From positions 1-48,299 of the IMG/VR virus record IMGVR_UViG_3300024265_000081: a stretch of DNA of 48,299 bases. The stretch is one strand, 5' to 3'. This stretch comes from a virus. The position numbers were made by a program, and so were the translations under genes. The notes under the pieces are model-generated. The model was not told where the DNA came from. It saw only the letters and a list, made by a program, of their open reading frames with translations, and searched no databases. This document shows, piece by piece, positions 1 to 48,299 of the stretch (positions within the stretch are counted from its first letter, which is position 1; each line of letters starts with the position of its first letter).

Positions 1-135
1 GTTGATGAACGGTTACGAACCGTTAGTAATTTTAAAAACCAACCCCCTTTTGGTTCAAGCGGGTGATTTGCGTTTTGAAATAGGCGAAGAGGTTAGAATA
101 TGCCAGCAGCCATAGGCGGTGGAATAAATATAGTT
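1..135. repeat. Left copy of 135-bp terminal direct repeat
   Basis: Positions 1-135 repeat 48165-48299 in the same orientation, differing only at position 9 (a here, g at 48173). The repeat lies inside coding sequence: the end of the GNAT-like gene and the start of the first ejection-protein gene. It therefore looks like a circular or circularly permuted genome opened by assembly rather than a dedicated terminal repeat. This agrees with the headful-type terminase, but a true terminal redundancy cannot be excluded from sequence alone. Confidence 0.9.
2..115 (+). CDS. 3' end of GNAT-like virion protein (cut by window edge)
   Basis: This is the last 37 codons of the gene seen whole at 47563-48279, cut by the window start. 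The frame continues to a stop at 113-115. The single repeat mismatch makes codon 3 of this fragment Asn here and Ser in the full copy. The fragment overlaps the start of the next gene by 16 bp, exactly as in the right-hand copy. It is not a separate gene. Confidence 0.85.
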   Translation: MMNGYEPLVILKTNPLLVQAGDLRFEIGEEVRICQQP

Positions 136-765
136 GAAGGCGAGCGCAGTCGACAGGCATCCGAAGACATTGCGGAAAGATCCTCGGCAGCATCTCTAGC
201 GGCCGGGGAACGTTCCCAGGAATTCACGCGGGAACGACTGGCGCTGGCTCAAGGCTTGGTTGACCCCTATGTTCAGCGAGAGGTTCAAACCTCGAATCAA
301 TTACTCTATGAATTGGGAATGGCCCCCTACGTCGAGCCGGAGGGCCAGTCTCGTTACCCGAACATTGCACCGATTGAGGGAGGGGCTTATCAACAAGGAC
401 CGGGTTACCAACAGCTTCAACAGGCAGGAAGCTCCGCCGTTAGTCAAGGAGCCACCAATGTGGGGGATTTATACGGCGGTGCGCGAGGTGAAGCGCTTAG
501 TCAGGTCGATCCCAGTATCGAAGGCCAGTTTTACACTAACTACCTTAACCAGTTGCAGAACTTAGCGAGCCCTCAAGTCTCACAGAACATCGGCGCTTTG
601 GCTGTCGGACAGGGAGCCACCGTAGGAGCGCAGGGAATTGCGGCTCAAAGGCTCGCGTCCGATTACAACTTACAAGGCACGGCGGCTACTCAAGCCGCTA
701 GAGCGGATCAAATCGGCGCGCTCAGTCAATTGGCCAGTAGCTATTTTTCTCAGAATGGAGCCTAA
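100..765 (+). CDS. Ejection (pilot) protein, P22 gp7-like, copy 1
   Basis: This 221-residue protein is rich in Gln, Ala, Ser and Gly and has no signal peptide. Its N-terminal third is a charged, helical segment; the C-terminal half is low-complexity and helical. It sits directly after the GNAT-like gene and before two larger proteins, the position of P22 genes 7-20-16, whose products leave the virion with the DNA and build a conduit through the envelope. It is clearly a paralogue of the next gene: both share a DP-[YF]-[VI]-QRE segment followed by SNQLLYE, IEGQFY, and an ASDY-LQG segment near the C-terminus. A GAGG motif lies 7 nt before ATG. Assignment rests on position and composition as well as general resemblance, so the exact P22 counterpart is uncertain. 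Confidence 0.6.
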   Translation: MPAAIGGGINIVEGERSRQASEDIAERSSAASLAAGERSQEFTRERLALAQGLVDPYVQREVQTSNQLLYELGMAPYVEPEGQSRYPNIAPIEGGAYQQGPGYQQLQQAGSSAVSQGATNVGDLYGGARGEALSQVDPSIEGQFYTNYLNQLQNLASPQVSQNIGALAVGQGATVGAQGIAAQRLASDYNLQGTAATQAARADQIGALSQLASSYFSQNGA

Positions 766-769
766 TTAA

Positions 770-1495
770 ATGGGATTTTTTAGTGATGCAGCAACCGTAC
801 CGGTTGATTTCTTGGACGTGGGCGGGGCCACCGCCTCCAAAGAAGCCGCCGAACGAGAAGCCGCCGCGACCCTTGAAGCCGCCCGAGCCTCTGAGCAATT
901 CAACGTCGAACAATTCGGTGTGGCCCAAGAGTATTTCGATCCTTTTATTCAGCGAGAACAACAGGCATCTAACCAATTATTGTACGAGATGGGCTTGGGA
1001 GATTTTCTACCCGAGGGCGCACAGGTTGACGAAGGGCCACCCGCGTATCAGCAAACGGACGCCTATTCACGGTTGCGTGAGGAAGAGTTTGCACGGGTCA
1101 ATCAAACAGCGGCTAATACCGGTACGTTGTACAGCGGGGCGCGTGCTCAAGGACTTAAAAGCGCCGGGGCGAATATTGAAGGCCAATTCTACTCTAACTA
1201 CATGAACATGCTGCAAAACATATCTAACCCGCAAGCCACGCAAAACCTCGCCGCTTTAGCCACCGGACAATCCGCCTCCATAGGACAACAGAACATTCAG
1301 GCTCAACAAATCGCCTCTGATTACCAACTACAAGGCGTGGCAGCTTCTAATGCCGCCAGAGCGGATATAGGCGGTGCGGCTAGCGCTTTTGGCTCCTATT
1401 TTGGTAATCAACCCACGTCTCAACCATCCGGGGGCTCGGGTGCCTCGGGATTTGGCGATTACTCCAACGCTTACGATTACAGCGGGTACGTCTAA
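770..1495 (+). CDS. Ejection (pilot) protein, P22 gp7-like, copy 2
   Basis: A 241-residue paralogue of the preceding gene, starting 4 bp after it ends. Shared blocks include QLLYE, the IEGQFY segment near mid-protein and the ASDY-LQG block close to the end. It differs in an acidic Ala-rich start (about residues 20-45) and a Gly/Ser/Tyr-rich tail (about 205-241) that copy 1 lacks. The pair is best read as an ancient tandem duplication within the ejection module. It probably acts in the capsid interior and in the DNA-ejection conduit. Family role is inferred from gene order. Confidence 0.6.
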   Translation: MGFFSDAATVPVDFLDVGGATASKEAAEREAAATLEAARASEQFNVEQFGVAQEYFDPFIQREQQASNQLLYEMGLGDFLPEGAQVDEGPPAYQQTDAYSRLREEEFARVNQTAANTGTLYSGARAQGLKSAGANIEGQFYSNYMNMLQNISNPQATQNLAALATGQSASIGQQNIQAQQIASDYQLQGVAASNAARADIGGAASAFGSYFGNQPTSQPSGGSGASGFGDYSNAYDYSGYV

Positions 1496-4898: not shown

Positions 4899-6470
4899 AT
4901 GACAGGTCTAGCACTCAATCCTTATTCCCAATTCCTTGACGACGCCGGGGTTGTTTTAAGTAACGGAACGCTAACGTTTAATGTCAATAACACAACCACG
5001 ATCTCCACTATTTTTACCGACTTAACCGGGTTAGTGGCGCAGTCGAACCCCTACACATTAGATGCCTCGGGACGGCTCACGGGTGACGTTTATTATGATG
5101 GACTAAAGCGCATGATTGTTAAGGACAGCAGCGGCGCAACAATTCGAACGTTAGACGATGTGGCCACTCTCACAGATGAACAGGTCGGGCAACGAACAGT
5201 ACCGACAACCGGGACATTTACCGCGCTGGGAGATACCTCTTACTCCTTAAACTCATCCTTTATTTTCAATATCACCTTACCTCTAGAGCCTGATGACCAG
5301 ACGTTCGTTCGTTTTTACACCACTAATCCCAGCCTTGTCCTAACTTTACTCGCGCAAGGATCGGACTTTATCCAAGCCTCTGTTGGCACGATTGCCAGTG
5401 CGACAGGTACGCACGACGGCGGTGCTTTCACACAACTAGAAGATAGCACGGCGACTTTCACGGAAAATCGGTTTAGAGGGATAGCGATTACTAATACCAC
5501 GACCGTTGATACGGGAATAATTGATGAGAATACGACAACCGGCGTGACTGGTTCGCCTTCTGTTTTATTCAGTGCCGGTGACGCGTACCTGATCGATAGT
5601 TCGCGGTATAAAATCGTTACTTCTATGAATTTTACTCTGTTAGAAATAATTTATGAAAACGCATCCGCTCGCTGGCAGGTATCGATGAGGGCGGGCACCG
5701 ATGACGCGGTTCTATTCAATCCGGGTTCGTTTAACTCCTATCCGTTCATTGATGGAGGTTTTAACAGCTTTACACTTAAGGATTTGATGGCACAGATAGA
5801 TGCCATTTTAGACGTTCATCTCGATCCTGACTCTTATACCGTCATGGGTGAAACAGCCGTGACGTTTAATTTGGGCACGCGGGCCAATAACAAGGTTACT
5901 GAATTTACGGGTTCAACGGCAGCGGTCGCAACAATCAACACGAACTTGGGTATATTTTGGCACTTGTTCTTTAATAACGGCACAGTGGATGTAACTGTGA
6001 CGACTGCTGTCGATATCACCACCTTGTCTTTTTTAAACGGAGCGCGCATATCCACCAGCGACGATATTATTGTTCCGCCTGGTGGGTGGTGTTTTATTAG
6101 AACCAATGAAGATGCCGAGGCGAGAGTTATTGCATCGCCCTCGGTGGTTAAGGATTTCACTGGCACCACCCAGCCACAAGCACAGATTGCTACCGGTGTC
6201 TTAACCATTCCTGACACTGTGCGACATGTGGATATTTTATTTGTTCTTTCTGAAGTCCTGGGCGTGCCCGATACGATCACCTCCTTGGTAGGAGGGCATG
6301 AGGGGCAAATGCTGGTTTTCAGGACAGTTGTCGATCCCGAGTTTATCACGTGGACGGATTCAGGATCGATTAATTTAGCGGGTAATTTTGTTACGGCTAC
6401 CTCACGAGATACACTGACGTTAGTGAAATCCTCAACTGCGTGGTACGAAGTCAGTCGATCCACCAACTAA
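4899..6470 (+). CDS. Tail spike/fibre with P22-like head-binding N-terminus
   Basis: A 523-residue protein. Residues 1-95 read like a P22 tailspike head-binding domain: an NPYSQFLDDAG segment, a short strand pair, an NPYTLDASGRL segment and a D-[VI]-YYDG-LK motif, which in that family joins the spike to the tail hub. The rest is Thr/Asn/Gly-rich beta structure. The last 100 residues contain beta-strands and Trp/Tyr suitable for a trimeric tip. It is separated from the ejection genes by about 230 bp and ends 4 bp inside the convergent AlpA-like gene. It probably recognises the host surface. No catalytic residues for glycan cleavage can be assigned. Confidence 0.65.
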   Translation: MTGLALNPYSQFLDDAGVVLSNGTLTFNVNNTTTISTIFTDLTGLVAQSNPYTLDASGRLTGDVYYDGLKRMIVKDSSGATIRTLDDVATLTDEQVGQRTVPTTGTFTALGDTSYSLNSSFIFNITLPLEPDDQTFVRFYTTNPSLVLTLLAQGSDFIQASVGTIASATGTHDGGAFTQLEDSTATFTENRFRGIAITNTTTVDTGIIDENTTTGVTGSPSVLFSAGDAYLIDSSRYKIVTSMNFTLLEIIYENASARWQVSMRAGTDDAVLFNPGSFNSYPFIDGGFNSFTLKDLMAQIDAILDVHLDPDSYTVMGETAVTFNLGTRANNKVTEFTGSTAAVATINTNLGIFWHLFFNNGTVDVTVTTAVDITTLSFLNGARISTSDDIIVPPGGWCFIRTNEDAEARVIASPSVVKDFTGTTQPQAQIATGVLTIPDTVRHVDILFVLSEVLGVPDTITSLVGGHEGQMLVFRTVVDPEFITWTDSGSINLAGNFVTATSRDTLTLVKSSTAWYEVSRSTN

Positions 6471-6685
6471 TTATTGGGGTCATCCGACATTTCCTTAATT
6501 AAGACACGAATATCATCCACTCGCCACGCCACTATGCGATCACTCATTTTCACCGGTTCTGGAAATCGGCCCTCTTTTACGCCTTTATACCAAACGGATC
6601 GGCTGACGGGAATAAGTTCTAACACCGCCTCTAGTCGAATAAATCCTGTTTTCGGTAAGTCCCTTATCTTTTTTCCGTGATCCAT
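6467..6685 (-). CDS. AlpA-like winged-helix DNA-binding regulator
   Basis: A 72-residue protein with the MerR/AlpA-type fold: FIRLEAVLELIPVSRSVWYK gives the helix-turn-helix, followed by a GRFPEPVK wing motif and a WRVDDI helix. AlpA-family proteins are small activators or excisionase-like factors of prophages. I start it at 6685, where GGAGG lies about 6 nt upstream, instead of at the in-frame ATG 12 bases earlier that lacks a ribosome site. It is the last gene of the leftward block and converges on the tail-spike gene. With no integrase in the window, a purely transcriptional role is likelier than excision. Confidence 0.75.
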   Translation of the reverse strand: MDHGKKIRDLPKTGFIRLEAVLELIPVSRSVWYKGVKEGRFPEPVKMSDRIVAWRVDDIRVLIKEMSDDPNN

Positions 6686-6771
6686 GTCTGCCTCCATTCT
6701 GTATAAAAGGCGCGATTATGTCACATAAAAAATAGATAAAAAATAGAGGGGTTCTAATATTTAAAGTAAAT

Positions 6772-6990: not shown

Positions 6991-7206
6991 CTATTCAAAT
7001 GAAGATTCTATCTCTTGGGAAAATGCGCCATTTTTTGCATTTTTTGTATTCTGAATCTTTTCGTATATTTCCTCTCGATGGACGGCCACGTGCTTGGGTG
7101 CGGTAATACCCAAGCGTACTTGGTTGCCTTTAACGCCCAAAACGGTGACTGTAACTTCATCGCCGATCATGAGATTTTCACTTATACGTCTCGATAAAAT
7201 TAGCAT
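6991..7206 (-). CDS. csrA: CsrA/RsmA-family RNA-binding translational regulator
   Basis: A 71-residue protein with the full CsrA signature: [18 protein letters not shown], then [15 protein letters not shown] and [15 protein letters not shown]. The conserved Leu4/Arg6-Arg7 region of strand 1 and the VHREEI region of strand 5, which form the RNA-binding surfaces, are intact. CsrA dimers bind GGA motifs near ribosome sites and change translation or stability of mRNAs for carbon metabolism, motility and biofilm. The C-terminal tail from about 55 is Ser/Glu/Asn-rich. An AGGA ribosome site lies about 7 nt before ATG. A phage copy could retune host mRNAs or regulate phage messages. The identification is firm; the target is not known. 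Confidence 0.93.
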
Positions 7207-9150: not shown

Positions 9151-9771
9151 TTAGAACTTTCTAGCAATCGATAACGACATGTTTTCAATCGTGTGGTCGA
9201 CGGATCTCAATCCGGGTAATGATGTGTTTAGATTAGCCTCAAGCTTCCTATATTCGAATCCAATCAATATATCGTTGCTGAAGTCGTATTGAGCCCCTAT
9301 TCCCCAGTACATATTATTCCCGTTATCATCGAGAACTATTGAAAGCCCCGCTAAGGAATCAGAGGATTCACGGGATAGATTGTATTCAACCTCCCACACC
9401 GACAAGCCCATGCGTGCATTCAGTGAAAAACCGGTTGAGAACGGAATGACCGCTTTAAACCCAAGGTTAAAAGCGGTTGTTTCCAGTGTCTCACTCCACA
9501 CACCGTCTAACGCAGTACCCTCAAAATCATAATCTGAAGACTCTTTTGCCTCGCCATAATCCTGAAAGGCTAACTCAACGGCAATATAATCGGCGAGTTG
9601 ATAGCCGCCCCTTACCCCCCATGAAGTACCACGGCCAGAAACGGAGCTGCCAGCACCAGCGTCCGCTTTTTGATGGGCCGTACCCATTAAGAATTCGACA
9701 TAAAAATCCGTGTTCGCGATGGTGGGTAGGGATAATGTGGCTAGCGCAAGGGCTGTAATAATCTTTTTCAT
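9151..9771 (-). CDS. Outer-membrane beta-barrel protein (OmpA/Ail/Lom-like)
   Basis: A 206-residue protein with a Sec signal peptide (MKKIITALALATLSLPTIA, cleavage near 19-20). Alternating aromatic/hydrophobic strands separated by polar loops then run to a terminal Phe (SLSIARKF), the usual BAM-complex signal. Size and pattern fit an eight-stranded barrel such as OmpA N-domain, OmpX/Ail or lambda Lom. It would be exported to the host outer membrane, not placed in the virion. AGGAGA stands about 7 nt before ATG, and a long dyad lies just upstream. Known phage relatives alter host surface, serum resistance or phage adsorption; which applies here is unknown. Confidence 0.85.
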   Translation of the reverse strand: MKKIITALALATLSLPTIANTDFYVEFLMGTAHQKADAGAGSSVSGRGTSWGVRGGYQLADYIAVELAFQDYGEAKESSDYDFEGTALDGVWSETLETTAFNLGFKAVIPFSTGFSLNARMGLSVWEVEYNLSRESSDSLAGLSIVLDDNGNNMYWGIGAQYDFSNDILIGFEYRKLEANLNTSLPGLRSVDHTIENMSLSIARKF

Positions 9772-12608: not shown

Positions 12609-12851
12609 CTATATTTCGAAAACTTCTATACAGATAACCCGGCTTCCTTTATCTGTTTTGCGCGTGGTAAAGCGCTTACCCAGTAATACTGGCATCGCTG
12701 ACAGGATAATTCTGTAGTTGCTAGGGAAGTACTGGATCACAAACGATTCCCCTTCCTCTATATCACGGATCGCCTCTAGAAATTGCTCCACCGTCGATGA
12801 GTCATAATCTCGTTTGGGCATCGGTACAGTCTCAATTTTAATTTTTTTCAT
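12609..12851 (-). CDS. Small phage protein of unknown function
   Basis: An 80-residue protein (from the ATG at 12851, preceded by a GAGAG stretch). It has a VEQFLEAIRDIEEGESFVI segment and an FTTRKTDKGSRV strand-turn, a pattern I associate with small host-takeover or DNA-mimic-like phage proteins, without a named family. It overlaps the ParD-like gene upstream by 14 bp, in the place where a toxin would stand, but it does not look like ParE or RelE. Confidence 0.5.
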   Translation of the reverse strand: MKKIKIETVPMPKRDYDSSTVEQFLEAIRDIEEGESFVIQYFPSNYRIILSAMPVLLGKRFTTRKTDKGSRVICIEVFEI

Positions 12852-13032
12852 TATCAAACTCTCTCTCGTGTAGCCGAAGCGCTTCGCGTAAAACTTCCGC
12901 TACCGACATATACCGGCCGGTAGCGATAAGATCCTCTATATATTTAGCGTAATGTTCACCAATGGATTTTTGTATCGTTCCGCCAACCTGCTTTTTTCTG
13001 CTGGGCTCTCTCTTGTTTGAATTTTTTTTCAT
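12838..13032 (-). CDS. ParD/CopG-like ribbon-helix-helix protein
   Basis: A 64-residue protein with a very basic first 15 residues, then GGTIQKSIGEHYAKYIEDL and MSVAEVLREALRLHER, the ParD-type ribbon-helix-helix ending. An AAGG ribosome site precedes the start. ParD proteins are DNA-binding antitoxins and autorepressors. The adjacent gene is not a recognisable toxin, so a solo repressor is as likely. Confidence 0.65.
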   Translation of the reverse strand: MKKNSNKREPSRKKQVGGTIQKSIGEHYAKYIEDLIATGRYMSVAEVLREALRLHEREFDNEKN

Positions 13033-16203: not shown

Positions 16204-16884
16204 ATGGCCGGGGACTGGATTAAGATGCAAATCAACCTTTGGACCCACCCAAAAGTTGTCCGCATGATGTCCGCATTGAATGCGGACACAGTTTTAATCT
16301 GCGGCGCGCTCTATCGAATCTGGTCAATCGCCGATGAGCACACGATTGATGGCTTCCTCGAAGGGTACACAATCGCGATCGTTGATAAGGAGGTCCAGTT
16401 GATTGGTTTTGGGCAAGCGTTACAGGACGTTGGGTGGCTCCAAGACCATGGCGATAAAGGCGTGCAAATCGTTGATTTTGAAGCACATATGGGGAAAGGA
16501 GCCAAGCGCAGAGCGATGGAAAGTCGGCGCAAAAAATTGTCCCGAGAAAAGGGTCCAATCGCGTCCGCACCCAATGCGGACAGATTGCGGACTAGAGAAG
16601 AGAGAGAGAAGAGAGAGAGTATATACAATCGATTCGATCGATTCTGGATCGCTTACCCCAAAAAACAAAACAAAATAGCGGCACAGCGATCATTTGAAAA
16701 ATTGAATCCAAACGATACGTTACTGGAAAAAATCTATGCCAATATTTCACAGCGGATAAAATCTGATCAATGGAATACCGGGGCACGAAAGAAATTCGTT
16801 CTCGATCCTGTCGTGTATCTCAGGGACGAGCGGTGGAACGATGAGAGTTTGGTGGCTGAAACCACAGCGGAGCGATTGGAATGA
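16204..16884 (+). CDS. Replication initiator/organiser-like protein
   Basis: A 226-residue protein. The N-terminal MAGDWIKMQINLWTHPKVVRM and following 80 residues look like a winged-helix DNA-binding domain of phage replication proteins. A Lys/Arg/Glu-rich linker (about 95-140) follows, then a C-terminal domain beginning FDRFWIAYPKKQNKIAAQRSFEKLNP, typical of phage replisome-organiser families. It starts directly after the zinc-finger gene and overlaps the helicase gene by 4 bp. It probably binds the origin and loads the helicase. The origin might lie inside this gene, but no iteron set was spotted by eye. Confidence 0.65.
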   Translation: MAGDWIKMQINLWTHPKVVRMMSALNADTVLICGALYRIWSIADEHTIDGFLEGYTIAIVDKEVQLIGFGQALQDVGWLQDHGDKGVQIVDFEAHMGKGAKRRAMESRRKKLSREKGPIASAPNADRLRTREEREKRESIYNRFDRFWIAYPKKQNKIAAQRSFEKLNPNDTLLEKIYANISQRIKSDQWNTGARKKFVLDPVVYLRDERWNDESLVAETTAERLE

Positions 16885-17798
16885 AAAAATTCACGCTCGA
16901 CATGAGCGACCAAGAATTACTTGCGTTCCTCGGGAACCAGGAATCACAGGAAATCTATCCGTTTGGCTCGATGAGGGATCGTGTTCTCGAACAGCTCAAC
17001 GCACCCGAGCTGGTGGGCGATAAACTTCCGTGGAGCAAAACCCACGGCGATGTGGCGTTAGGTCCGGGAGAGCTGAGTCTATGGGCGGGCATCAACGGAC
17101 ACGGAAAATCCCAAATGGTTAACCAAGTGGTTTCGCATTTCGCTAGGAACAAAACTATTTTCATTGCGTCCATGGAAATGCCTGCGGCAAAAACCCTGCA
17201 AACGTTGATTACCCAAAGCGCCGGTTGTAAACCCTCCAGTGAGTATGCGTCAGACTGGATGAAAAATACGCCGGGGTATATTTACGACTGTCTCGAAAAA
17301 GTTGCCTCAGAGCGCATGCTGGGTTTAGCCTACTACGCCGGACAAGAACTTGACGTTGATCACATGGTCATCGATTCTCTAACGATGTGCGGTGTGGGGC
17401 GTGACTACGACGACCAAGCTAATTTTGTTAATCACCTGCGGGCAGCGGCTAAGCGTCACGACATGCATATCCATTTGGTGTGCCACATGCGCAAAGGTGA
17501 AAATGAATCGTCAAAGGTCGGGAAGTTTGATATCCGTGGTGCCGGTGAAATAGCTGACATGGCCGACAAAGTGTTCATCGTGCAACGGAACAAAGCCCGA
17601 GAAGAAGCCAAAAAGTGCAGTGCCAACGGGTATGAACTTACGGAAAAACAAGTTGATCTGTTAGAAAATGGATACGATGTTGCTTTGCGATTAGAAAAAA
17701 ATAGGCAAGACGGAAATGAAAATGCATGGGGCTTGTATTTTCACAAGGATTCTTTACAATTCACCGCTCAAGAAGGCAGAGCATTAACGTTAGTATAG
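16881..17798 (+). CDS. DnaB/RecA-fold replicative helicase
   Basis: A 305-residue RecA-fold ATPase. Walker A is GINGHGKS (about 70-77), Walker B lies in DHMVIDSLTM (about 160-169), and an HLVCHMRKGE segment near 200 matches DnaB motif H3. There is no N-terminal DnaB primase-binding domain or TOPRIM domain, so it is a short helicase core like those of P22-type gene 12 or twinkle fragments. It would unwind DNA at the fork and recruit host polymerase. Its neighbours supply the initiator and zinc-finger functions. Confidence 0.85.
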   Translation: MKKFTLDMSDQELLAFLGNQESQEIYPFGSMRDRVLEQLNAPELVGDKLPWSKTHGDVALGPGELSLWAGINGHGKSQMVNQVVSHFARNKTIFIASMEMPAAKTLQTLITQSAGCKPSSEYASDWMKNTPGYIYDCLEKVASERMLGLAYYAGQELDVDHMVIDSLTMCGVGRDYDDQANFVNHLRAAAKRHDMHIHLVCHMRKGENESSKVGKFDIRGAGEIADMADKVFIVQRNKAREEAKKCSANGYELTEKQVDLLENGYDVALRLEKNRQDGNENAWGLYFHKDSLQFTAQEGRALTLV

Positions 17799-19463: not shown

Positions 19464-19532
19464 TTGCAGAGTTCGATTATTTGGCTAGAGTTAAGAGTGA
19501 CACGTTGTGCTTCACCGACTGAGGATGTGTCA

Positions 19533-19562
19533 GGGCTACAAGGCTGGGATGCTTTGTAGCCC
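19533..19562. repeat. 9-bp inverted repeat, possible terminator or operator
   Basis: GGGCTACAA (19533-19541) and TTGTAGCCC (19554-19562) are perfect complements around 12 bp, followed by an A/T-rich tail of ATA repeats. It may end the replication-block transcript or serve as an operator near the promoter 25 bp downstream. Confidence 0.45.
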
Positions 19563-19584
19563 AATAATAATAAATAATAACCCC

Positions 19585-19614
19585 TTGACATGGGGTAACA
19601 AAAAACCTTAAAGT
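19585..19614 (+). promoter_or_regulatory. Candidate late promoter
   Basis: A perfect -35 hexamer TTGACA (19585-19590) with a modest -10 TAAAGT (19609-19614) at 18-bp spacing. Transcription would begin near 19620 and meet the terminator at 19699-19723, giving a short RNA of about 100 bases. Confidence 0.45.
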
Positions 19615-19698
19615 TATCTAGCTTGGCAAGTATTGCCCACGCACTCTTTTTAACCTCATAATGTAGACCTGTTTTCTAGCCCACCATGGCTAGTCCCC

Positions 19699-19723
19699 AC
19701 CGCCTCTATGGGCGGTTTTTTTT
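19699..19723 (+). terminator. Intrinsic terminator
   Basis: ACCGCC (19699-19704) and GGCGGT (19711-19716) form a perfect 6-bp stem around TCTATG, followed by eight T (19716-19723) and a further T-rich stretch. It stands between the candidate late promoter and the next gene, so read-through would be needed to express that gene from the promoter. Confidence 0.85.
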
Positions 19724-19768
19724 ACTCTTTTTTTAGTGCCCTTCCCGGTTATTTGTCCGGATTTGTCT

Positions 19769-19792
19769 GTGAAACACGGCTGTGTGTTTCAC
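19769..19792. promoter_or_regulatory. Inverted repeat of parS half-site sequence
   Basis: GTGAAACAC (19769-19777) and GTGTTTCAC (19784-19792) are perfect complements around GGCTGT. Each arm contains GTGAAACA or its complement, the half-site of the parS palindrome that lies 8 bp downstream, but the arms face with a spacer, not as a fused palindrome. It could be a second protein-binding site. Confidence 0.6.
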
Positions 19793-19800
19793 GAATCTCA

Positions 19801-19816
19801 TGTTTCACGTGAAACA
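19801..19816. promoter_or_regulatory. parS: Perfect parS-like ParB-binding palindrome
   Basis: TGTTTCACGTGAAACA is a perfect 16-bp palindrome identical to the well-known consensus of chromosomal parS sites bound by ParB. By chance such an exact 16-mer is expected about once per four billion bases. I found no second full copy in the window and no recognised parA or parB gene. It lies in the non-coding region about 80 bp before the next gene. Host ParB binding is the natural prediction. Confidence 0.75.
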
Positions 19817-19896
19817 TCTTCTACATCTTATTGATTTTTGATCTAAGGACGGGAGTTTTTAGAGGATTTGCGGGTGTGGCGGAGGAATCTTTAAAA

Positions 19897-20223
19897 ATGA
19901 TAGACCAATTTCTCAAAGTCGTGGCTCGAACAGACATTTTCACGTTGTTGATCTTGCTCGGCAGTTTGGGGTGGGCGGGTCAACAGATTTTCGCCAAGCA
20001 CACGGGTGACGTGAAGGCGATTTACACCCTGCATAATCGGGATATCAACGTTATTCAAATCTCACGGCTGCAAATGGATTACGCGTGGGTGTGTGACGCG
20101 CTGGAGAAGGGGACCGCTGGCGTGTTTCTCACCCAGCAAAAAGCCACGTTGGAAACGAGTATCCAGGTCATTGCCACGGAATTGGGCATTGAACCCACTG
20201 AATTTTGTTATGAAACGCCGTAG
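19897..20223 (+). CDS. Possible holin-like membrane protein
   Basis: A 108-residue protein from the ATG at 19897, which has GGAGG 11 nt upstream. One transmembrane segment at about 14-34 (DIFTLLILLGSLGWAGQQIF) precedes a soluble, helical C-terminal part with two Cys. It is the first gene after the control region, where phage lysis genes often start. A single-span N-in holin or another inner-membrane protein are both possible. An upstream TTG at 19831 would lengthen it without a ribosome site. Confidence 0.4.
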   Translation: MIDQFLKVVARTDIFTLLILLGSLGWAGQQIFAKHTGDVKAIYTLHNRDINVIQISRLQMDYAWVCDALEKGTAGVFLTQQKATLETSIQVIATELGIEPTEFCYETP

Positions 20224-26255: not shown

Positions 26256-26873
26256 ATGCTCGCTAAAACGTGCTCAATCCTGGATTGCCCTTGCGAGAAT
26301 CCACAACCGCTGGAGAATTTTTACAAAGACAAAACAAAAAAAAGCGGTCGTAGATCGCGATGTAAGACTTGTTCAAAACGTTACCACTATGAGCTAACCG
26401 AACGAAGGATAAAGCAAGAAGTGGTTATACCGTTATATAAAGAATGCGGTCAGTGTAGGGAAATGCTGCCAAGTTCGCTAATGGTTAAAAAGGTCCAGAG
26501 CCCCGATGGATTAGGCGTCATTTGTAAAAGTTGTCAGAATCAAAATTATTCCGATAGGGGATATTATTCCAATAGGGACTTCGAACGGGAAGCTATATTA
26601 AGTCGTGTTCGTTACCTCGCTAAGATTGCACTGAAGAACGGCATTATTGTTATGCCTGACGAGTGCCAATGCACTTGGGATGATTGCGATGTGTCGGGCG
26701 GATTAGAGATGCACCATTGCAATTACCACTACCCCACAGTTGTGGTTTTTTTATGCCGTAAACACCATAAGCATTGGCATCATAAATACACGCCTGTCTA
26801 TCCATGGGATTCCGACGATAGCAATTCACCCACTAAAGAAGCTTTTATTTTGAGGTTCCCTGTATATGACTGA
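26256..26873 (+). CDS. HNH-endonuclease-like zinc protein
   Basis: A 205-residue protein. Its N-terminal half has several Cys pairs (CSILDCPCE, CKTCSK, CGQCR, CKSC), and its C-terminal third holds CQCTWDDCDVSGGLEMHHCN followed by LCRKHHKHWHH, an HNH-type metal site. It stands immediately before the small terminase, where phage HNH proteins often assist terminase cleavage or DNA packaging. It overlaps the small terminase by 8 bp. A homing-type endonuclease role is also possible. Confidence 0.65.
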   Translation: MLAKTCSILDCPCENPQPLENFYKDKTKKSGRRSRCKTCSKRYHYELTERRIKQEVVIPLYKECGQCREMLPSSLMVKKVQSPDGLGVICKSCQNQNYSDRGYYSNRDFEREAILSRVRYLAKIALKNGIIVMPDECQCTWDDCDVSGGLEMHHCNYHYPTVVVFLCRKHHKHWHHKYTPVYPWDSDDSNSPTKEAFILRFPVYD

Positions 26874-27342
26874 AAAGAAAAACGGCCGACCGTCTAAATA
26901 CTGCGGTGAGCTGGTCACTATTATTTGTACTAGGTTGGGTGAGGGTGAATCACTGCGCTCAATCTGTGCTGATAAAGAGATGCCTGCTAAGTCTATGGTT
27001 ATGCGATGGCTCTCTAAGGAAGAAAGTTTTCGGGACCAATACGCACGAGCTAAAGAATTAGGCGCTGAAGCCATCTTTCACGACATGCTTGAAATTGCTG
27101 ATGATAAGAGCGAGGACCATACAACCAATGAGGAAGGGAGTTTTGTAGGCGGTACAGCGGTACAACGCGCACGCGTACAGATAGACACACGTAAGTGGTA
27201 TCTATCCAAGATATTGCCGAAGAAATACGGTGACAAACAACAGGTAGAAGTATCGCGTGCGTTGGTTGATTTAGATGAAGACGAGCTATCGTCCACTATC
27301 AAACGATTACAGCAACAGCTTGAACAAAGCACAGAAGATTAA
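26866..27342 (+). CDS. terS: Terminase small subunit (Sf6 gp1-like)
   Basis: A 158-residue protein. The N-terminal GRPSKYCGELVTIICTRLGE with SLRSICADKEMPAKSMVMRW is the helix-turn-helix that binds the packaging site, and AVQRARVQIDTRKWYLSKIL followed by PKKYGDK is the conserved region of phage small terminases. A GAGG lies 9 nt before the ATG. It selects phage DNA for packaging and hands it to the large subunit, whose gene overlaps by 68 bp. Confidence 0.85.
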   Translation: MTEKKNGRPSKYCGELVTIICTRLGEGESLRSICADKEMPAKSMVMRWLSKEESFRDQYARAKELGAEAIFHDMLEIADDKSEDHTTNEEGSFVGGTAVQRARVQIDTRKWYLSKILPKKYGDKQQVEVSRALVDLDEDELSSTIKRLQQQLEQSTED

Positions 27343-28780
27343 GCTCGCTCAGGCGCTAGAGGAGCAAATAATACGGAACAAGCTGGATAGGGCTAACCGT
27401 ATCTATAGCTCTTTCTATGAGTGGCAGCACGCGTTTAATGCAGCCACTAAAGACCATACGTCGTGCATGTTGATGGCGGCGAATCAGGTCGGTAAGACAC
27501 GCACCGGCACGTGCATCGATGGCTTTCATTTAACGGGTAACTATCCCGATGATTGGAGCGGGCACAAGTTCGAACGCCCGGTTACCGCGTGGCTATTGGG
27601 CTATTCAGGGGAGAAGACTCGCGACCTGTTGCAACATAAGCTCTTTGGCCGTATGGACCCGCAATCAGGCTTAGAGGGAGGGTTGATACCCAAAGAGCTG
27701 ATCATTGATTACAAGTCCATGAAGGGCATTAGCGGCAGTGTGAGAGAGGTGCGCGTTAAACACGTGCGCGGTGTCTCCGTCTGTCAATTCTGGTCGTACT
27801 CTCAAGGCCAACACGCACTAATGGGCGATGTGGTTGACTGGTATCACATCGACGAGGAACCCGAGGATCAAGAGATATTCCCGCAGGTCATCACTCGTAT
27901 TGTTAACGGTGATCGCAACAGGGGCGGCAGAGGCATACTCACGTTTACCCCTGAGAACGGGAAGACAGAGTTAGTGACACGCTTCATGGATGAACCTGAA
28001 TCCTCTATGTTCTTACAGCGTGCCACATGGGACGAAGCACCGCATCTATCCGAGGAAGCCAAGACCAACATACTGTCTCAATACCCTGCGTATCAGCGTG
28101 ATATGCGCTCCAAGGGTGAGCCATTAATGGGCACGGGATTAATCTTTGACGTTGATTCGGAGTCCCTTATATGTGAGCCATTTGCGATCCCGGAATACTG
28201 GTTCATTATAAACGGCATGGACTTTGGATGGGACCATCCGCAGGCACACATACAATTAGTTTGGAATCGCGACGAAAATATTTTTTATGTGACCGCCAAT
28301 TGGAAAGCCAGTAAAACTCAGCCTTATGAAGCGTGGCACATAGTTAAATCCTGGGCTGAAAATGTCCCTATAGCGTGGCCAGCAGACGGATTACAGCATA
28401 AACAACAATTAGGAAAGGAAGCCGTACAGCAGCGCTCATTATACGAGGAAGAGGGTTTTAACATGCTCTCGGACCACGCAACGTGGGAAGAGGGGGGTAA
28501 TGGGGTATGGGTTGGAATTATGGAATTAACCAACCTCATGAAATCCGGCCGCTTAAAAATATTTAAAAATTGTTTTGATTTGCTAGCAGAAATACGACAG
28601 TACCACACCAAAACCGGCCCCAACGGAAAAATAGAAATAGTAAAAACCAACGATGATTTGTTAGACGCATTGCGTTACGCCTACATGATGCGCCGGTATG
28701 CCTCACGAATTTTTGATTTAAATCCTGAAAACATCCCTGAACATACCGAAGAACGGATAGAAGGGGATATCTACGCGTGA
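27275..28780 (+). CDS. terL: Terminase large subunit, ATPase-nuclease
   Basis: A 501-residue packaging motor. Walker A is ANQVGKTR (about 69-76) and Walker B lies in VVDWYHIDEE (about 186-195). The nuclease has GMDFGWDHP (Asp316 and Asp320) and DDLLDALRYA (Asp near 460-464). It drives ATP-powered translocation of DNA into the capsid and cuts headful lengths, as in Sf6/P22-type terminases. The start at 27275 overlaps the small subunit; a TTG at 27320 is an alternative. Domain identification is firm. Confidence 0.93.
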   Translation: MKTSYRPLSNDYSNSLNKAQKIKLAQALEEQIIRNKLDRANRIYSSFYEWQHAFNAATKDHTSCMLMAANQVGKTRTGTCIDGFHLTGNYPDDWSGHKFERPVTAWLLGYSGEKTRDLLQHKLFGRMDPQSGLEGGLIPKELIIDYKSMKGISGSVREVRVKHVRGVSVCQFWSYSQGQHALMGDVVDWYHIDEEPEDQEIFPQVITRIVNGDRNRGGRGILTFTPENGKTELVTRFMDEPESSMFLQRATWDEAPHLSEEAKTNILSQYPAYQRDMRSKGEPLMGTGLIFDVDSESLICEPFAIPEYWFIINGMDFGWDHPQAHIQLVWNRDENIFYVTANWKASKTQPYEAWHIVKSWAENVPIAWPADGLQHKQQLGKEAVQQRSLYEEEGFNMLSDHATWEEGGNGVWVGIMELTNLMKSGRLKIFKNCFDLLAEIRQYHTKTGPNGKIEIVKTNDDLLDALRYAYMMRRYASRIFDLNPENIPEHTEERIEGDIYA

Positions 28781-31061: not shown

Positions 31062-31233
31062 AGAGGAGATTGACGAAGGCTTAGCCCTATCCAGTTACGT
31101 GGATTCCGACTGTTCGGATAGAACGTTTTCTCAAATTCACGTAGCGATTGGCAATCAGCAAGGCTTGCAGAGTGCCGCCGCCTATATGTTTCTGTTAGAT
31201 CGATTCCAAATGATCAAGGTGGAAGCGGCATGA
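30955..31233 (+). CDS. Small protein translated from inside portal 3' end
   Basis: A 92-residue protein from the ATG at 30955, with AGGAGG 5 nt upstream, read in a different frame over the last 107 bp of the portal gene. It is acidic and helical (IQDEIETWLHHPVTKAYLRC, LQLYEEEID) and ends coupled to the GroES-like gene. An unusually long overlap with a strong ribosome site suggests deliberate coupling to portal translation. Function unknown; a head-assembly factor is possible. Confidence 0.6.
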   Translation: MAQAPRDPTPVIQDEIETWLHHPVTKAYLRCLQLYEEEIDEGLALSSYVDSDCSDRTFSQIHVAIGNQQGLQSAAAYMFLLDRFQMIKVEAA

Positions 31234-31682
31234 GGATCGGAAACGAATTAAAGAAGCAATATGCCGACATGTTGCGGCGTGATATGAATCAAGACGAAGT
31301 AGACGAAATTCGGCTTCGATTTTCCGCTCTGGAGCCCGAGGCGACGGGCTATCACATCCTGATCCGGCCGATTGATGCCACTCAGGGAATGGAAGCCGCG
31401 CAGATGGACCTAGCACCTGAACTCGCGGCAGCGGGATTCCAGATGAAAACCGACCACGAGCAATCGCGACAGTCTAAAGGTTCAGACATTGGTTTGGTGA
31501 TTCATCTCGGCCCGGAAGCTTATCAACACGAGCGTTTTGGCGATCCGTGGTGTGAAATCGGTGACATTGTGTTGTTCAAGCGCTACGAAGGCCATCAATT
31601 TGAATTTCCTCCCGGAAGCGGTACGCGCTATCACCTCGTTAACGATGAAGACATATTTGGCGCGTTAGGGGATAAATCATGA
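31230..31682 (+). CDS. GroES/Cpn10-like co-chaperonin
   Basis: A 150-residue protein. After a helical 38-residue start, residues 40-147 read like a Cpn10 fold: GYHILIRPIDATQG, an open mobile-loop region, DIGLVIHLGPEAYQ, then EIGDIVLFKRYEGHQF and LVNDEDIFGAL. The GD-x-VLF and DEDI-x-G motifs are characteristic. T4 gp31-like phage co-chaperonins replace GroES so GroEL can fold the capsid protein; its place between portal and scaffold suits that. The mobile loop that would contact GroEL seems replaced by a Glu/Gln/Asp-rich segment. Confidence 0.75.
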   Translation: MRIGNELKKQYADMLRRDMNQDEVDEIRLRFSALEPEATGYHILIRPIDATQGMEAAQMDLAPELAAAGFQMKTDHEQSRQSKGSDIGLVIHLGPEAYQHERFGDPWCEIGDIVLFKRYEGHQFEFPPGSGTRYHLVNDEDIFGALGDKS

Positions 31683-47566: not shown

Positions 47567-48279
47567 TACCAAAACCCGATATTACTCCGGCCAGCCCGCT
47601 TGTCCGATCTTTTGATTACCAATTTATTGAGAGTGTCATTACTCACCCTTCGGTGATTAAAGGTGCGCGATGGAAGGACGGCCTAACGATCCAGCCAGTA
47701 GTGGAAAATCTGAATAATTATTTACTCGTGAATGAATTCGGCGGTTTTATCGTGGTTAATCAACTGCCCACTGTCTACGAATGCCACACGCAATTTTTAC
47801 CGGAGGGGCGCGGTCCGCAAGTTCGGGATGCCGTCAAAGACGCCTTTGACTACATGTTTATTAACACGGATTGCGAGCGAATCACTACCCGAGCGTATAA
47901 AGATAATTTTGCGTCCGTGAAGTTATCAAGAGAATTTTTCACCGAAGAAGGCGAAACTAACGAATATTTTTATTACAGTTTACGGTATGAAAACTGGGTG
48001 AAAACAGATTTAAACCTATCAGCGGGTCAAGAGTTCCACGAACTTGTCAAAGAGACCACCAATCACGGTGACGATAAAACCCACGATTATCACGTGGGTG
48101 CGGCGGTACGAATGGCTAAGGCCGGAAATTACGGCAAAGCCCAACACCTTTTTAATTCATGGGCGTTGATGAGCGGTTACGAACCGTTAGTAATTTTAAA
48201 AACCAACCCCCTTTTGGTTCAAGCGGGTGATTTGCGTTTTGAAATAGGCGAAGAGGTTAGAATATGCCAGCAGCCATAG
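47563..48279 (+). CDS. GNAT-fold virion-associated protein (T7 gp13-like)
   Basis: A 238-residue protein. The N-terminal 130 residues have the GNAT layout: NNYLLVNEFGGFIVVNQLPT (strand and cofactor region), ECHTQFLPEGRGPQVRDAVK (motif A, about 73-92), and ERITTRAYKDNFASVKLSRE (motif B, about 105-124). A helical C-terminal part follows. In T7 a GNAT-like protein, gp13, assists virion internal-core assembly; the place before the ejection genes fits. Acetyl-CoA binding residues cannot be confirmed. Its end overlaps the ejection gene start by 16 bp, repeated at the window start. Confidence 0.7.
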   Translation: MIPKPDITPASPLVRSFDYQFIESVITHPSVIKGARWKDGLTIQPVVENLNNYLLVNEFGGFIVVNQLPTVYECHTQFLPEGRGPQVRDAVKDAFDYMFINTDCERITTRAYKDNFASVKLSREFFTEEGETNEYFYYSLRYENWVKTDLNLSAGQEFHELVKETTNHGDDKTHDYHVGAAVRMAKAGNYGKAQHLFNSWALMSGYEPLVILKTNPLLVQAGDLRFEIGEEVRICQQP

Positions 48280-48299
48280 GCGGTGGAATAAATATAGTT
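48165..48299. repeat. Right copy of 135-bp terminal direct repeat
   Basis: Repeats 1-135 with one mismatch (g at 48173, a at 9), which changes Ser to Asn in the GNAT-like protein. The copy contains the first 12 codons of ejection gene copy 1 from 48264. It shows the sequence closes into a circle or is circularly permuted. Confidence 0.9.

Follow-up and report, generated by a model that had tools for sequence, protein, structure and literature searches.

The biochemistry of ParB is established: the protein is loaded as a clamp at parS, spreads from there and makes contact with ParA and SMC. Phage-plasmids encode a ParA and a ParB of their own, together with their own site, and phage phi29 is reportedly captured in B. 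subtilis spores with the help of the host ParB, Spo0J, an observation attributed to Meijer et al. in 2005. The phi29 entrapment is also mentioned in PMC9429907, and ParABS systems of phage-plasmids and extrachromosomal prophages, e.g. mycobacterial ones, have been described (PMC7157519). In SGI1, parS-like elements hijack the parABS system of IncC plasmids, and both binding and stabilisation have been demonstrated (PMC10954446). The consensus parS used in ParB work is TGTTTCACGTGAAACA (PMC7383237).

A 48,299-base viral record from IMG/VR, referred to in its entirety as the window, contains TGTTTCACGTGAAACA as an exact consensus chromosomal parS and not as one of its tolerated variants (Table 1). 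The site lies outside the listed genes, and the preliminary description of an exact 16-bp palindrome in non-coding DNA is thus borne out. The exact palindrome extends one base pair further on each side, to the 18 bp of ATGTTTCACGTGAAACAT, and the site with its flanks agrees at 19 of 20 positions with the crystallised parS duplex GATGTTTCACGTGAAACATC. It is the sole match to TGTTTCACGTGAAACA in the window at up to three mismatches; shuffled windows have a mean of 0.26 such matches. The number of exact 16-mer matches expected by chance is 48,284/4^16, or 1.1e-5 for the window (about 1 in 90,000), and the earlier figure of about 1 in 100,000 is right as the figure for one pre-specified motif, the parS motif having been chosen only after the 48 kb had been read. 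The palindrome was also considered as an intrinsic terminator; this was rejected, as no T run follows it and a terminator scan lists none there.

The two ends of the record repeat each other with identity at 134 of 135 positions. The record is therefore probably near-complete, and the absence of ParA and ParB probably extends to the whole genome. That absence, asserted in the preliminary description, held up when profiles were applied: ParB_N (PF02195), HTH_ParB (PF17762) and the ParA-type ATPase (PF13614) have no match in the record, and a Pfam scan of 69 ORFs found no ParA or ParB family. A partition system belonging to the phage itself is thus rejected. A tyrosine integrase profile likewise has no match in the window. 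Relatives of the large terminase in IMG/VR are 55-72% identical, and relatives are also found in genomes of Pseudomonas, Azotobacter and Acinetobacter; bacteria of these types generally carry parABS.

Table 1. Positions of features in the window; '.' marks features without strand.
Feature	Positions	Strand	Remarks
Terminal repeat, left copy	1-135	.	repeated at 48165-48299
Two adjacent DNA-ejection-like proteins (PHROG 598)	100-1495	+	47% identical in alignment; apparently a tandem duplication
AlpA-like protein	6467-6697		
CsrA homologue	6991-7206	-	Pfam E 6e-26
Phage outer-membrane beta-barrel protein	9151-9771	-	has a signal peptide; sequence of OMP beta-barrel type; may function in exclusion
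RHH protein	12838-13032		
Replication module: initiation protein, DnaB-like helicase	16204-17798	+	2-3.6 kb upstream of parS
ORF upstream of parS, 153 aa	19002-19463	+	without family match
Intergenic region with parS	19464-19896	.	from ORF list and start-codon check
Sigma-70-like promoter match, TTGACA-18-TAAAGT	19585-19614	+	consensus match only
Intrinsic-terminator-like hairpin, then T run	19699-19716	+	about 85 bp upstream of parS; consensus match only
Inverted pair of parS half-sites, GTGAAACAC-ggctgt-GTGTTTCAC	19769-19792	.	6-bp spacer; 8 bp upstream of parS
Exact 18-bp palindrome	19800-19817	.	
parS	19801-19816	.	
First ORF downstream of parS, 108 aa	19897-20223	+	ATG at 19897; one hydrophobic segment near N terminus; no PHROG match; perhaps a lysis-type membrane protein
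Small (26866-27342) and large (27275-28780) terminase genes	26866-28780	+	Sf6/P22-like packaging; 7 kb downstream of parS
Protein whose C-terminal part is GroES-like (co-chaperonin)	31230-31682	+	among capsid genes (PHROG 3188)

Immediately upstream of parS, and unmentioned in the preliminary description, two further copies of its half-site form another inverted pair in the opposite arrangement, so that four GTTTCAC half-sites are found within 48 bp. The GTTTCAC heptamer is bound by several chromosomal ParBs (PMC7022226). In other viral contigs, half-site clustering near parS is not general (0.27 vs 0.26 per kb), and for this reason the meaning of the pair is uncertain. With this pair beside it, the palindrome might also be read as an operator for a regulator of the phage, e.g. 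the RHH or the AlpA-like protein, its likeness to parS being coincidental. The phage does encode such small DNA-binding proteins. However, an exact 16-bp match to one particular sequence that is enriched across unrelated phages, with degeneracy of the ParB type (see below), makes the operator reading improbable.

The next gene begins 80 bp downstream of the site, which is beside a terminator-like and promoter-like region; this raises the question of whether host ParB acts as a local regulator. Clamps of ParB spreading over the late promoter region would then retard or adjust transcription of the lysis or late genes downstream. When a parS was placed next to a test promoter, P. aeruginosa ParB bound there had a negative effect on neighbouring genes (PMC7022226). 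In another phage group, parS precedes terL by no more than about 150 bp in at least 13 contigs of one large-terminase family, which also fits local regulation. Against it, the position of parS varies between phages and includes the vicinity of structural, replication and pre-early genes; local regulation is unlikely, if still to be taken seriously. The leader between parS and the downstream ORF has several GGA motifs, possible CsrA targets.

The exact parS sequence was found in at least 120 IMG/VR stretches. In the same collection, the reversed palindrome, which has an identical composition, was found in 1 and its 14-bp core in 20. When the bare 16-mer flanked by N was used as a query against the 50,697 annotated phage records of INPHARED, 286 records had exact parS vs 0 for the reversed palindrome; close relatives account for many of these and independent origins are fewer, yet many lineages are represented. 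Among the matches listed are Herelleviridae of Listeria and Lactobacillus, phi29-like Salasmaviridae, the T5-like Vibrio phage phi 3, Roseobacter/Ruegeria phages, several groups of Gordonia, Arthrobacter and Microbacterium phages, one Butyrivibrio phage, one inovirus and Microviridae. Cultured carriers include Ruegeria phage DSS3P8 and the Bacillus phages Chedec 11 and B103. Chance as a general explanation is rejected by the reversed-palindrome controls in the two collections. For the window itself, chance occurrence without function might be argued from the single site and from its lack of conservation at this place in relatives. An expectation of about 1e-5 per genome speaks against it, and the class-wide enrichment makes function much likelier beforehand; we hold a chance origin to be highly improbable.

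Phages of Escherichia, Salmonella and Klebsiella, though abundant in the collection, are absent from the matches listed. Enterobacteriaceae are without chromosomal par genes (PMC7022226), and this host pattern, among the matches listed, is suggestive.

Contamination of IMG/VR by host chromosomes is unlikely as the main source of these sites, because a chromosomal parS is usually near parAB, ParB_N is found in only four of the 96 parS-bearing IMG/VR records tested (92 are without it), and the carriers share phage gene families: 34 of the at least 120 contigs have one large-terminase family and 30 have one portal family. Single contigs may nevertheless be host DNA, notably the short unannotated 'Listeria phage LM 4-' records. 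ParB_N is also found in one of 12 named parS phages (11 are without it). With ParB_N nearly absent from the carriers, the reader of parS is either host ParB or an unrelated phage protein of the same specificity, and host ParB is the simpler choice.

Several carriers without ParB have multiple copies. Bacillus phage vB_BcoS-136 has four parS within about 1 kb, and the phi29-like phages B103 and Chedec 11 have two to three parS or near-parS sites (two exact and one near in Chedec 11, which lacks ParB). An extreme case is bajarodino virus 3 (L323, PQ006097.1), a 6.2-kb inovirus with six exact parS and no ParB. Vibrio phage phi 3 (L319, KP280063.1) has in each terminal repeat one exact parS and one TGTTTCACGTGGAACA; the exact parS is between the A1 and A2 genes, a region that presumably enters the cell first. 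In Microbacterium phage Quhwah (L330), parS is inside a gene annotated as encoding a DNA-binding protein, and a ParB_N protein is encoded about 7 kb away.

The near-sites are informative about specificity. The at least 120 IMG/VR contigs have 21 further one-mismatch sites vs 0.012 expected; 15 of these are TGTTCCACGTGAAACA and a further five deviate at the outermost base alone. Near-sites of the named phages are likewise TGTTCCACGTGAAACA or its complement. Natural parS sites tolerate a C as fifth base and a variable first base. As judged from these sequences, the pattern would not be expected from a random or an operator origin. In addition, 76 of 146 parS sites (52%) are non-coding, whereas about 11% of the sequence is; with the count restricted to long ORFs, 96 of 146 (66%) are outside them vs 23% of the sequence.

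The parS-rich large-terminase family of 34 contigs has as its nearest named phages 023Pt_psg01, Pelagibacter HTVC027P, HTVC023P and DSL-LC04. When this clade was sampled by terminase, six of 78 members had the exact site, all six already present in the parS scan. Universal conservation of parS in the clade is therefore rejected; the trait is patchy, with some members having parS and most not. Two contigs carry five exact parS each, with arrays of four to five in or beside the terS-terL gap (L101, 2657-3444; L128, 10535-11462).

Such arrangements bring up DNA packaging or terminus processing, in which the DNA would be marked by host ParB or else by the small terminase at a parS-like sequence. 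Many SU10-portal phages have parS immediately before terL, which fits this, as do the arrays and the degenerate sites upstream of terminase genes in some relatives (see below). On the other hand, parS in the window is 7 kb from terS, the inovirus and Microviridae also have parS and package DNA quite differently, and what is matched across phages is the ParB consensus and not a terminase-specific site. A packaging role is thus distinctly improbable for this phage. Both late-gene control and packaging are kept alive by the recurrence of the site upstream of terL in other phages.

Among 11 longer IMG/VR relatives of the phage in the window, a close one (G001/L003) carries TGTTCCACGTGAAACA at a different place, apparently inside a coding sequence. 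Three others (G003, G007 and G010) have parS-like sites centred on CACATG, which in two of them are upstream of terminase genes; the rest have no convincing parS, and ParB_N was found in none of the 11. A few relatives have sites with two to three mismatches, some of these directly upstream of terminase genes; degenerate sites are so placed in L020, L045, L048 and L055. When 80 terminase relatives were pooled, five sites at up to two mismatches were found, three of the five being orthologous; 30 shuffled palindromes averaged 0.1. Conservation in relatives, proposed as a check in the preliminary description, was therefore seen in part, as TGTTCCACGTGAAACA elsewhere in the close relative and as a few sites with two to three mismatches; the 15 relatives in bacterial genomes have no parS at up to two mismatches in the stretch examined. 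Positional conservation at this locus is rejected: no IMG/VR relative of the ORF upstream of parS was found, no DNA similar to the parS region was found in annotated phages, and the closest terminase relative (L002) has no parS at up to three mismatches. Conservation of parS at this locus is thus weak.

Taken by its sequence, parS in the window is most likely a loading site for host ParB, i.e. a centromere mimic. After infection, host ParB would recognise the phage parS, close as a CTP-dependent clamp and slide onto adjacent phage DNA. The phage genome would then resemble a host origin to ParA and, via ParB, to SMC, and while unintegrated it could be held on the nucleoid and moved with it. The likeliest benefit would be to keep the genome from being lost when hosts grow slowly, divide or lie dormant. 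The earlier proposal that the phage uses the host ParABS system gains good indirect support, as far as a host-ParB site is concerned, from the large enrichment of the exact site, the ParB-like near-sites and the absence of ParB from almost all carriers. The three functions it had offered (segregation, polar placement, and a switch for transcription or packaging) are not distinguishable here. Segregation of a plasmid-like prophage is rejected as a general explanation, because strictly lytic phages also carry parS; Listeria P100, the T5-like Vibrio phi 3 and the phi29-like phages are taken by us to be of this kind.

That parS is a selected target of host ParB of some kind is quite probable. Within this confidence, retention or positioning as the benefit takes a little over half, as against gene control or packaging. 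Retention or positioning is favoured because the phage is without an integrase and both precedents, SGI1 and phi29, act in this way; binding by host ParB and a benefit of this type are what we infer. It should be pointed out that the window has only one full site and that its position is not conserved. The complete statement, a host ParB-loading site that serves retention or positioning of the unintegrated phage genome, is offered tentatively and with slightly less than even confidence. As to phages in general, we lean towards the view that carrying a host-type parS but no ParB is a common strategy that has evolved repeatedly, with examples among tailed phages, an inovirus and Microviridae, and that through it phages draw the partition complex of the host chromosome to their own DNA where the host has ParABS, and not where it is missing.

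Recruitment of host ParB to phage DNA, if real, would make chromosome partition a host factor of infection across many phage groups and would account for the persistence of some non-integrating phages. A prediction is that phages of hosts lacking ParABS, such as Enterobacteriaceae, are without parS, and the matches listed agree so far. Full-text searches, which covered part of the literature, found no survey of phage parS sites without ParB and no paper directly on phage parS with host ParB.

The phage site has the same 16-bp sequence as chromosomal parS (PMC7383237, PMC7022226). Chromosomal parS is near oriC, whereas the phage site is on a 48.3-kb phage record without parA or parB and thus has no chromosomal location near oriC and parAB. 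The ParABS systems of phage-plasmids resemble the present case in having a partition site on a phage genome and differ in that the phage in the window has neither a parA nor a parB gene. Like phi29, the phage would be a non-integrating one that exploits host ParB; unlike phi29, it has P22/Sf6-type packaging and relatives of a Gram-negative type, and spore capture is therefore not expected. The likeness to SGI1 is that of a mobile element with only the cis site, whose stability is, or in the phage would be, served by the ParAB of another replicon, and the window indeed has a cis site without its own ParAB. The SGI1 elements depend on a plasmid-encoded ParB, whereas in the phage case the ParB is putatively chromosomal and the element is an uncultured virus. 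A parS mimic that hijacks the ParAB of another replicon is thus already known, and it is the breadth of the phenomenon across phages that is of interest.
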